Shown piece by piece: positions 6,448 through 20,668 of a DNA stretch of 25,778 nt (its first letter is position 1; every line of letters begins with the position of its first letter). The notes beneath the pieces were generated by a model, which searched no databases, was not told where the DNA came from, and was given only the letters and a program-made list of their open reading frames with translations. The stretch comes from a virus, in IMG/VR virus record IMGVR_UViG_3300008339_000420, positions 1 to 25,778 of that record, one strand, 5' to 3'. The translations under genes were made by a program, and so were the position numbers.

Positions 6448-6699
6448 ATGAAAATCAATCTACGCATTGAATTGAATACTGGTGAAGCAAAGGAAGTAAC
6501 TTGTTCGGCTGCCGACCTTGTTGCTTTTGAAACTAAGTATGACGTGTCAGTTACCACTTTGGAATCTGGTGTGAAGTACACTCATTTGCTCTTTTTGGCT
6601 TGGACTAGCGAAAAGCGCCGCAAGGAAACTACTAAGGACTTCGAGTCTTGGGTTGAGGATGTCGCCTCTGTTGGGGCGAGTGAAACAGACCCAAAATAA
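6448..6699 (+). CDS. Tail assembly chaperone, short form (gpG-like)
   Basis: The 83-residue unshifted product (MKINLRIELNTGEAKEVTCS at its start, SETDPK at its end) corresponds to lambda gpG, which keeps the tape measure protein soluble and recruits tail tube subunits. RBS is AAGGAAA before the ATG. The last sense codons are CCA AAA, followed directly by TAA, and are part of the slippery heptamer CCCAAAA at 6690-6696. Position between tail tube and tape measure is diagnostic. The longer shifted product is listed separately. Confidence 0.85.
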   Translation: MKINLRIELNTGEAKEVTCSAADLVAFETKYDVSVTTLESGVKYTHLLFLAWTSEKRRKETTKDFESWVEDVASVGASETDPK

Positions 6700-6854
6700 A
6701 GGGTCTGGGCGAAACTTCAGCCCACTGGCACATTGCGGCTTTGGCTTGCGAGACTGGTATCGCTCCTTCTGTGCTTATGCAGGAGTCTGACCGTATGTTG
6801 TTCACGATGACTCGTTATCTGACGGCTAGGGCGCAGGCTCAGTCTTCTAAATAA
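6448..6854 (+). CDS. Tail assembly chaperone, -1 frameshifted long form (gpGT-like)
   Basis: If ribosomes slip back one base at CCCAAAA (6690-6696, read C-CCA-AAA in the zero frame), translation bypasses the TAA at 6697 and continues to TAA at 6852, giving 135 residues: 83 from frame zero and 52 from the -1 frame. The added part, including ETSAHWHIAALACETG and QESDRMLFTMTRYL, looks like the usual chaperone T domain that contacts the tape measure protein. The -1 ORF has no good start of its own. A small hairpin at 6706-6724 begins nine bases after the heptamer, the right spacing for a stimulator. Known in most siphoviruses; efficiency cannot be judged. Confidence 0.85.
6690..6696 (+). promoter_or_regulatory. 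Programmed -1 frameshift slippery site
   Basis: CCCAAAA, a canonical XXXYYYZ heptamer in the correct phase, with the zero-frame stop immediately after it. Stem TGGGC/GCCCA (6706-6710 and 6720-6724, nine-base loop) follows after nine bases. Confidence 0.85.
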
Positions 6855-17492: not shown

Positions 17493-18122
17493 ATGCTCGA
17501 TGAGAAGTTCTACATAGAACGCATCACGAATCAAATGGCAATGGAAGTTGTTGTTGCTAATCACTATTTGCATCGCAGAGCGCCGTGTAGTTGGGCGTTT
17601 GGGATGTTTGACAAATCCAATCATCAGTTGGTTGGTGTTGTGGTTTATGGTGTTTCTGCGTCTTCGACTTTGTTGCGAGGTATTTGTGGTGATGATGAGG
17701 CAAAGAATGTTTACGAGTTGACTCGTTTGTGGATTGACGATGATGTGCCTAAGAATGGCGAGTCTTGGCTGATTGCTAACACGATGGGTAAGACGGACAG
17801 GGAAATCATTGTCAGTTATGCTGACAGTTCACAGAACCATGTGGGTGTGGTTTATCAGGCTGCGAACTTTATTTACACGGGTTTGTCGTCTAAGTTCAAA
17901 GACCCGAAGGTTCGTGGGTTAGAGCATCAGCATCACGCTACTTATGCAAATGGTATGACCAACAAAGAGGTTGTCGAGAAGTTTGGTGACCGTGTGTATT
18001 TTGTCGAAAGACCACGCAAGCACAGGTATGTTTATTTTGCAACTTCTAAGAGTCGGCGTAAGGTTTTGATGGGTAAGTTGCGTTATCCTGTTTTGCCGTA
18101 TCCGAAAGCAGCAAGTGAATAA
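17493..18122 (+). CDS. Mom-like (GNAT-fold) DNA modification protein
   Basis: 209 residues, RBS AAGGGA. The pattern (NHYLHRRAPCSWAFGMFD at 23-40, GVVVYG, YELTRLWIDDDVPKNGESW at 74-92, and SYADSSQNHVGVVYQAANF at 108-126) is that of the Mom-related family, whose Mu member converts adenine to a carbamoylmethyl-type derivative in phage DNA and so blocks host restriction. Order of elements agrees with an acetyltransferase-like fold. The C-terminus is basic (RRKVLMGKLRYPVLPYPK), apt for DNA contact. No Com-like translation activator is evident next to it, although the following gene encodes a small zinc-type protein. Family likely; reaction in this phage unproven. Confidence 0.65.
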   Translation: MLDEKFYIERITNQMAMEVVVANHYLHRRAPCSWAFGMFDKSNHQLVGVVVYGVSASSTLLRGICGDDEAKNVYELTRLWIDDDVPKNGESWLIANTMGKTDREIIVSYADSSQNHVGVVYQAANFIYTGLSSKFKDPKVRGLEHQHHATYANGMTNKEVVEKFGDRVYFVERPRKHRYVYFATSKSRRKVLMGKLRYPVLPYPKAASE

Positions 18123-20078: not shown

Positions 20079-20236
20079 TGGCTAAGGTTCTCGCTACTGT
20101 CATCCAGTTGTGGTCTTGCTACCTTTTTTGGTTGGTGGGCGAAACTGAGCAGTTCTCAGGTTTCGTTCGTGTGTCTGCGATTATGTTGATGGTTCTGTTT
20201 GCTTTTGCAACGGTTAACGTGTGGGTAAAGAAATAA
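20078..20236 (+). CDS. Small two-helix membrane protein
   Basis: 52 residues, starting MAKVLATVIQLWSCYLFWLV. Two hydrophobic segments, about residues 5-20 and 30-48 (GFVRVSAIMLMVLFAFATV), with a basic end (WVKK). ATG overlaps the SSB stop, and its 3' end overlaps the GTG of the RusA gene by 16 bases. Small inner-membrane proteins in early phage operons sometimes act in superinfection exclusion or anti-defence; here the function is unknown. Confidence 0.6.
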   Translation: MAKVLATVIQLWSCYLFWLVGETEQFSGFVRVSAIMLMVLFAFATVNVWVKK

Positions 20237-20668
20237 CGCACGGCGAGGAACGCAAAAGCATCACGCTTTTCGTTGAGGGGCGACCTGCGCCACAAGGCTC
20301 TAAGAGTTATCGTGGCAATGGTCGTTTCTCTGAAGCGTCTAAGTATTTACCTGCTTGGCGTAGCGCAATCGTGTTGGCTGCTAAACAAGAGTTTTTGCGG
20401 TCAGAGTCGGTTGCGATGTTTGACTCACCAGTTAGAGTGAGCATTACTTTTTACATTCAGAAACCGCAGCGACCTAAGTGGGTGTATCCGGCCTCTGCAC
20501 CGGATATTTGACAAGTTGACAAGGGCAGTTTTTGACTCATTGACTCAGGCTAAAGTTTGGGTTGATGACGCTTTGGTTGTTGAGTTGTTTGCCCGTGAGG
20601 TTTGGACTGGGGAAACAACCGACACCCGCCCTGTGAGTGGCGCAACCATCACCGTTGAGGCTTTGTAA
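20221..20668 (+). CDS. rusA: RusA-type Holliday junction resolvase, reading frame split by +1 shift
   Basis: The zero frame runs from GTG 20221 to TGA 20509-20511 and encodes 96 residues (LFVEGRPAPQGSKSY near the start, ending ASAPDI). From GAC 20510 the +1 frame continues the family motif exactly (DKLTRAVFDSLTQAKVWVDD) and ends at TAA 20666. Joined, the protein is 148 residues, normal for RusA, which cuts four-way DNA junctions. The catalytic Asp cluster is divided: Asp95 lies in the first part; Asp97, Asp115 and Asp116 in the second. Skipping the single T at 20509, at ATT-TGA-C, restores the frame. This may be programmed +1 frameshifting, a real inactivating indel or a sequence error. Confidence 0.8.

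Follow-up and report, generated by a model that had tools for sequence, protein, structure and literature searches.

The rusA gene of the window (the whole stretch of DNA analysed, 25,778 nt, positions 1 to 25,778 of the viral IMG/VR record IMGVR_UViG_3300008339_000420) is divided at a stop codon into two abutting frames, and it is considered probable that a functional Holliday junction resolvase of the RusA type is nevertheless made from it, through programmed forward frameshifting of the ribosome. In the absence of data on expression, proteome or ribosome profiling, the argument rests on comparison of sequences, in which the split, its recurrence at one codon, a conserved hairpin and, in a close pair of genes requiring a +2 step, selection on the C half can be read. 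A more specific proposal is put forward with only somewhat more belief than doubt: the D-x-D motif of rusA in actinophages may house a portable, hairpin-driven recoding signal, in which an upstream hairpin would stimulate either a +1 shift (AUU U-GAC) or a programmed +2 shift (GUG or CUG UA-GAC), and a stretch of about 50 nt would have been exchanged between phages.

Organization of the split rusA gene

The N half, in the zero frame (positions 20221-20508, plus strand), begins with GTG and comprises 96 residues ending in ...SAPDI, among them D95, the first catalytic aspartate; its start context is GTG GGT AAA GAA, compared with ATG GGT AAA GAA in the relative L004. The last codon, ATT for Ile96 (20506-20508, plus strand), is the presumed shift codon in the P site, and the identical codon is found in the relatives L002 and L003. 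It is followed by the zero-frame stop TGA in the context TGAC (20509-20511, plus strand), the T at 20509 being the base stepped over. When this T is skipped, reading continues with GAC AAG TTG... and the junction PDI-DKLTRAVFDSL is formed. The C half, in the +1 frame (20510-20668, plus strand), consists of 52 codons (20510-20665) and a TAA at 20666-20668, and carries D97 and D115/D116. An initial annotation, made from the sequence alone, had already described rusA as cut at ATT TGA C at 20509, and its coordinates and residue numbers hold (open reading frames 20221-20511 and 20510-20668).

Taken separately, the two halves score 14.3 bits (N) and 20.9 bits (C) against the Pfam RusA family (PF05866), both below the family cut-off of 22.8, whereas the joined protein exceeds it with 46.2 bits (E 8.8e-12). 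The count of 52 further open codons in the +1 frame, given in the initial annotation, holds. The joined protein also matches PHROG 140 (RusA-like resolvase). In a phmmer alignment its residues 93-122 are placed on residues 68-97 of E. coli RusA, and D95, D97 and D115/D116 correspond, after the frame change only, to residues 70, 72 and 90/91, which we take to be catalytic. The break thus falls between two catalytic aspartates, since D95 and D97 stand for residues 70 and 72 of the E. coli enzyme, and the claim that Asp95 and Asp97 come from different frames is borne out. A predicted structure of the joined protein (pLDDT 78.8, pTM 0.74, from 18 aligned sequences) gave seven matches in the PDB at E <= 0.001, every one a RusA chain and with a D70N mutant RusA entry among the structure matches; the similarity is modest (TM-score 0.48-0.52 by query, rmsd 5.2-5.9). 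Judged by profile, aspartate motif and modelled fold, the putative joined product meets the criteria for the RusA Holliday junction resolvase family, the cleavage of junctions being inferred.

Occurrence of the split in other viral contigs

The rusA codon divided in the window is also the point of the split in 13 further public viral contigs, which come from 13 metagenome ids. Two of them show the +1 form (ATT T-GAC) and eleven a form requiring a +2 step (GTG or CTG followed by TA-GAC, with the stop TAG). The number is a lower limit, as the pattern scans catch exact matches only. With the N half as query, 113 relatives were confirmed among viral contigs, and among the 80 kept two are split (L002 and L003) and the other 78 read in frame past the site. 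The C half yielded 248 relatives, of which three among the 80 kept are split: those on the contigs of L002 and L003, and L097. L002 and the window are 99.9% identical over 6-8 kb. L097 represents the second type of split, CCG GAT CTG TAG AC, in which GAC is reached past two extra bases. Two abutting frames for one conserved protein are present in several lineages, namely window/L003, L097 and the remaining +2 genes.

The extra bases created an immediate stop every time where the search pattern left them free. A pattern with one free base between PDx and DKL retrieved four stretches of viral contigs, two of them true RusA genes (the contigs of L002 and L003), both with T, creating TGA; L174 and L175 were chance matches and not RusA. 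Two free bases gave six true genes out of six, always with TA, creating TAG. A looser pattern with TA fixed gave eleven out of eleven, which are L176-L185 and the contig of L097. Apart from the contigs of L002 and L003, the pattern CCNGAYATTTGACAARYTNNNNMG found only L083, an unrelated chance match, and three of the six matches of the pattern CCGGCCTC...CCGGAY...GACAARYT were due to chance. A neighbouring gene used as query led to five loci, of which two are distant and the others are the contigs of L002, L003 and L004. Some of the +2 genes are close copies (L177 equals L180 over the rusA stretch compared, and L182-L184 are nearly identical), and the diversity of the group extends down to 52% identity to L179.

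In the phage records that were covered, the split was not met. Neither a megablast search of the window against INPHARED nor a blastn search of phages with the 61-nt site gave a match; in the scan of genome contigs no +2 site was found, and none of 54 stretches matching a pattern there was confirmed as a relative by protein alignment. Among the INPHARED RusA rows inspected (60 of 689, 60 of 513 and 60 of 362), all are in one piece except that of Gordonia phage Spooky, and none is split at this site, though an isolated phage with the site may exist. In Spooky, which was among the 60 of 362 rows, RusA is annotated as two genes (gp91/gp92, L186 1492-1987); the break, at ATC TGA G, precedes a D-x-D that is intact. 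It was rejected as an example of the same site: the break lies elsewhere, the annotation of the sister phage Squiddly has a single open reading frame, and the case is a one-off. A second complete RusA in the same phage was likewise set aside as an explanation, none being seen in the 14 split records (the window and the 13 contigs), all of which may be fragments.

Two further irregularities were observed among the relatives. L009 and L010 read PDLSKL, with serine for the second catalytic aspartate in an otherwise open gene, and L181 has a further frame break in the N half that is absent from its close sisters L182-L184.

History of the site

A tree of 72 rows was built, from which L181 was left out because of its further break in the N half. 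The window and L003 group with the intact L004, and L097 with the intact L098 and L099. Apart from L097, the +2 rows, nine in number, fall into a single clade in which every gene is split (SH-aLRT 90, below the 95 mark). Parsimony requires four changes, three of them forced by well-supported branches. It must be considered that the +2 rows were gathered with patterns demanding the split and the intact rows with window queries, with no search for intact relatives of the +2 clade; the absence of unsplit members may therefore be a sampling effect, and such members are possible.

In the lineage of the window the gene appears to be a mosaic. In two upstream open reading frames and the N half of rusA, L003 agrees with L004 at 86-93%, whereas in a 56-nt stretch at the site it agrees with the window at 94.6% and with L004 at 64%; the C halves of window, L003 and L004 are about 70% alike in all three pairs. 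A short segment with the shift site, at about 20456-20600, is thus common to otherwise distinct lineages. Every base from 20473 to 20515 (plus strand; 14 codons and the extra T) is identical in window and L003. This longest run of identical codons sits on the site, and 27 of 20,000 shuffles reach it; none of 13 synonymous positions is changed in the shared stretch, compared with 39 of 89 elsewhere (p = 0.001). Such identity would be expected from recent exchange as well as from constraint on the RNA. From these comparisons the site of the window lineage seems to have been moved by recombination, and its age there is uncertain. L097 and the intact L098 agree in 99% of protein columns and in 96% of nucleotides (462/482), falling to 79% (50/63) around the site.

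These results bear on what the initial annotation had left to be checked. It held that intact genes in all close relatives would refute recoding, and this is not the case, L002 and L003 having the same ATT TGA C split; conservation of the split in related phages, which it had wished to see, extends to these two, but L004, about as close, is intact. A recent mutation, which it had kept as possible, is unlikely for the +2 genes and remains undecided for the window lineage, where the site apparently moved by recombination. Recoding itself is backed by comparison, the 13 other contigs being split at the same codon, and by no experimental data.

A hairpin upstream of the shift codon

A feature that had been missed in the initial annotation is a hairpin lying directly 5' of the shift codon and overlapping it. 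In the minimum-energy structure of a 33-nt stretch of the window (-10.8 kcal/mol) the 5' arm GTATCCGG (20484-20491, plus strand) pairs with the 3' arm CCGGATAT (20500-20507, plus strand), which spans the codon GAT and the first two bases of ATT, around the loop CCTCTGCA (20492-20499, plus strand). The stem has seven Watson-Crick pairs (TATCCGG/CCGGATA) and a G-U pair. The 33-nt fold has a z of -1.55 against shuffles, 11 of 200 being as stable; over 100 nt the fold of the window is no better than shuffles (z +1.04).

A stem of at least 6 bp directly 5' of the shift codon was found in all 13 split rows tested, TCCGGC/GCCGGA in L097 and, in the +2 clade, CGGG(A/C)G with C(T/G)CC(C/T)G and three inner pairs. 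Such a stem alone is not rare, as 12 of 60 intact genes have one at this place (representatives left after near-identical sequences were collapsed from 82 to 60). Over the 42 nt that end at the shift codon, the minimum free energy of the 13 split rows lies between -11.1 and -15.7. In the 60 intact representatives it averages -6.2 (SD 3.7), and for any one split row between one and five of them fold at least as stably. When 62 nt are folded, L181-L183 adopt a different minimum-energy structure, although the 6-bp stem remains possible. Hairpin and shift codon overlap in the window and are separated by 1 nt in L097 and by 2 nt in the +2 clade, a variation without a trend matching the size of the shift.

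Within the +2 clade the stem was examined in an alignment of seven of the ten +2 contigs (A3); in the hairpin stretch L182 and L183 repeat L181, and L180 repeats L177. All nine pairs are kept in each of these seven rows, which are distinct (63 of 63 pair cells), and when the 3' arm is slid out of register 44-64% remain paired. Pairs changed on both sides are A-U to C-G (L178, L179) and G-C to U-G (L179). In one double change a GAG/GCG difference, which alters the amino acid, goes together with a silent CCT/CCG difference, a coupling that, as far as aligned codons can tell, selection on the protein does not predict. The covariation in this clade is graded as only moderate, because the rows are few, the structure derives from the rows' own folds and two changed pairs were reached in 31 of 500 shuffles. 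What has been observed is the stem in the 13 split rows and covariation in the +2 clade; a role of the hairpin in stimulating frameshifting is inferred.

The absence of a Shine-Dalgarno-like stimulator, remarked on in the initial annotation, stands: by eye GCACCG precedes GAT ATT TGA C, so that the criterion for a prfB-type site is not met, and a hairpin arm lies at that place instead. The stimulator is probably the upstream hairpin. In the +2 clade, AGGAG or GGGAG sequences precede the shift codon, within the stem or 5' of it, with a role that is unexplained.

Selection on the out-of-frame part

In the C half of L182 and L185, both split, dN is 0.024 and dS 0.36 (dN/dS about 0.07), and in the N half the values are 0.013 and 0.21; for the C half of L183 and L185, dN is 0.032 and dS 0.50 (dN/dS about 0.06). 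The two are overlapping pairs of one lineage, and C halves of unequal-length pairs (L176 or L185 against more distant rows), which were ungapped, were excluded from dN/dS. Between L177 and L179 the C half read in the shifted frame has identities of 0.76, 0.84 and 0.33 by codon position. Window and L003 differ in the C half by a dN of 0.25 and a dS of 0.82, with no stop or gap in 52 codons; part of this selection may be older than the split. As estimated from codon changes, the out-of-frame part is under purifying selection in the L182/L185 and L183/L185 pairs, which is less secure in the window lineage because of the recombination there.

Separate initiation of the C half is not a general answer, because its start codons are not conserved. 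In L181-L184 no ATG, GTG or TTG of the C frame is met until codon 55 of 55. A stop two codons upstream closes this frame, so the shift is confined there to GAC CTG TAG. L179 has no C-frame start upstream and its first at C codon 11. Elsewhere TTG stands at C codon 3 (window), ATG 29 codons upstream (L003), GTG nine codons upstream (L176, L177, L178, L180 and L185) or GTG twelve codons upstream (L097).

Proposed mechanism and rival explanations

The translational step, its direction and its purpose are inferred. The ribosome would reach ...Pro-Asp-Ile on AUU with UGA in the A site, where termination at UGAC would be slow. The mRNA just behind the P site would refold into the hairpin beside the E site, and the peptidyl-tRNA-Ile would release and re-pair one base on at UUU; decoding would restart at GAC to give ...PD-I-DKL..., with the catalytic D-x-D restored. 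At +2 sites the peptidyl-tRNA on GUG or CUG would shift two bases (to GUA) past the UA of UAG, with restart at GAC or GAU, and on GUG UAG the same valine tRNA could read GUA two bases on, with a one-base overlap. By codon-anticodon rules, two of three pairs should be retained from AUU to UUU, which the initial annotation had called a poor slip, and one or two from CUG to GUA, a full match being possible for GUG to GUA alone. Non-shifting ribosomes would release a stub of about 90-100 aa without a complete active site, which by inference could modulate the dimer. The shift would set the dose of a potentially harmful resolvase, and a low, set dose is plausible because RusA cuts branched DNA. For phage biology this suggests that the dose of resolvase may be held down during translation.

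Several other explanations have been weighed against this forward frameshift. It is unlikely that the gene has simply been inactivated, indels in the active site having removed resolvase function (for instance in escape from a defence system by which the resolvase is sensed) and the broken allele having spread by recombination. The position of window/L003 and of L097 among intact relatives would fit such a history, as would the signs of transfer at the site, the lack of a split there in the phage records inspected and the fact that no search was made for intact relatives of the +2 clade. It does not account, however, for extra bases that always make an immediate stop where left free (T in 2 of 2, TA in 6 of 6), for C halves that are stop-free across the diverse +2 clade and strongly conserved in the pairs tested, or for a covarying hairpin, which would have no role in a dead gene. 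Less likely still is a slip backwards, by two bases in the window and by one in the +2 class, which would produce D-x-x-D with one extra residue. The same frames would be reached, by inference two of three pairs could form at AUA after a -2 slip on AUU, and phage Mu makes use of -2 shifting (PMC5009743). The extra residue would break the D-x-D spacing, which is invariant in alignment A4 (18 rows; L009 and L010 left out) and matches E. coli RusA 70/72; -1 shifting is attenuated by an upstream hairpin (PMC6321510), and there is no slippery repeat, the -1 re-pairing of GUG at UGU being inferred to be poor.

Two fragments translated separately, through re-initiation coupled to the stop, and assembling as a split enzyme are improbable: although C-frame starts lie near the site in some rows (window, L003, L097, L176-L178, L180 and L185) and CTG, ATC or other rare starts cannot be ruled out, the lack of usable starts in L181-L184 and upstream in L179 opposes a common arrangement, and the first two catalytic aspartates would be on different chains. 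A sequencing or assembly artefact at the hairpin, finally, is barely credible. Hairpins can disturb sequencing and only contigs, no raw reads, were at hand, but 13 contigs besides the window, of several lineages and 13 metagenome ids, carry exactly T or TA; the sequence error that the initial annotation had left open is very unlikely, though some of these contigs are near-copies of one another. Transcriptional slippage was rejected, as the only run is the TTT of the window and no homopolymer is present at the +2 breaks, and so was an altered genetic code, which cannot change frame.

Comparison with known recoding systems

The initial annotation had compared the site with bacterial prfB. The analogy is valid for the forward slip of peptidyl-tRNA on the codon before the stop (UGAC in the window), for a duplex close 5' of the shift codon and for an essential function encoded in the C half, but prfB is not the sole analogue, since eleven contigs need a +2 step. 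In prfB the duplex is formed by a Shine-Dalgarno sequence and 16S rRNA and the slip is CUU to UUU (PMC5009743). In rusA, in contrast, the hairpin is intramolecular, the shift codon is AUU, or CUG/GUG with UAG and two bases, and the product is a phage nuclease and not a release factor.

A further analogue is the system of Huang et al. (PMC6321510), in which a hairpin beside the E site, upstream of CUUUGA, stimulates +1 shifting in an E. coli 70S extract, with about 60% of the effect of an internal Shine-Dalgarno sequence and only without RF2. Both there and in rusA a hairpin at the E site lies 5' of a sense codon and a stop, UGA in the designed site, on bacterial ribosomes; the synthetic site has a designed 12-bp stem and CUUUGA, whereas the natural rusA stems are shorter and are combined with other codons and with UGA or UAG. 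In T4 gene 60 a 5' stem-loop is regarded as a motor that pulls the mRNA back and starts forward movement of the ribosome, and UAG follows the take-off codon (Atkins et al., PMC5009743). That system differs by its 50-nt gap, matched non-overlapping codons, nascent peptide and take-off stem-loop, compared with the 1-2 nt and overlapping codons of rusA. The rusA sites contain the elements named for both published systems: a sense codon, a stop and a hairpin directly behind.

A +2 variety of programmed forward frameshifting has not been found described. The directions in use according to the review PMC5009743 are -1, -2 and +1; in its section on directions no evolved +2 site was found, and in the part of it that was examined RusA, resolvase and Holliday are not mentioned. 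PRFect (PMC10885494) puts RusA/RuvC among the 'False Positives' genes 'known to contain a frameshift'. A rusA site of this type does not seem to have been described already by way of that citation. In open-licence PubMed Central no paper on RusA recoding and no programmed +2 site was found, the latter being weakly tested as the sign '+2' cannot be searched. The resolvase reference among those that PRFect gives there (35-42) is, going by its title, a 1991 ruvC paper. Slips of two bases onto an overlapping codon are reported for tRNA-Val, as +2 hops at GUGUG in hopR mutants, and reportedly in a 1987 paper on 'forward hops', known by title. These cases differ from rusA in that mutant tRNAs or reporters are involved and not an evolved gene site.

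A natural +2 site, if true, would extend the known range of programmed ribosome behaviour. The upstream hairpin is a small system in which to test whether ribosomes are pushed forward by mRNA that refolds behind them, a matter to which T4 gene 60 and the designed hairpins had already drawn attention. For annotation there is also a warning, as such resolvases can appear as two fragments or as pseudogenes.

Host signal and neighbouring genes

A WhiB gene is present in the window, and WhiB was found in 14 of the 16 records searched (the window, the 13 split contigs and the intact L004 and L098); the two records without it are both shorter than 10 kb. In the control set WhiB was matched in Corynebacterium glutamicum only. 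On this distribution, the carriers of split rusA are probably phages of actinobacteria. WhiB matches with a counted stop were not accepted as further recoding, the stops being terminal in those translated.

About 2 kb upstream of rusA, positions 17493-18119 of the window encode a Mom-family protein (Pfam PF25680, E 8.1e-44), likely a DNA-modification gene. Positions 6448-6854 have a layout like that of a tail-assembly-chaperone -1 frameshift: an 83-aa open reading frame ends in DPK TAA at the slippery C_CCA_AAA (6690-6696), and the -1 frame stays open to the TAA at 6852-6854. The chaperone label is presumed from position.
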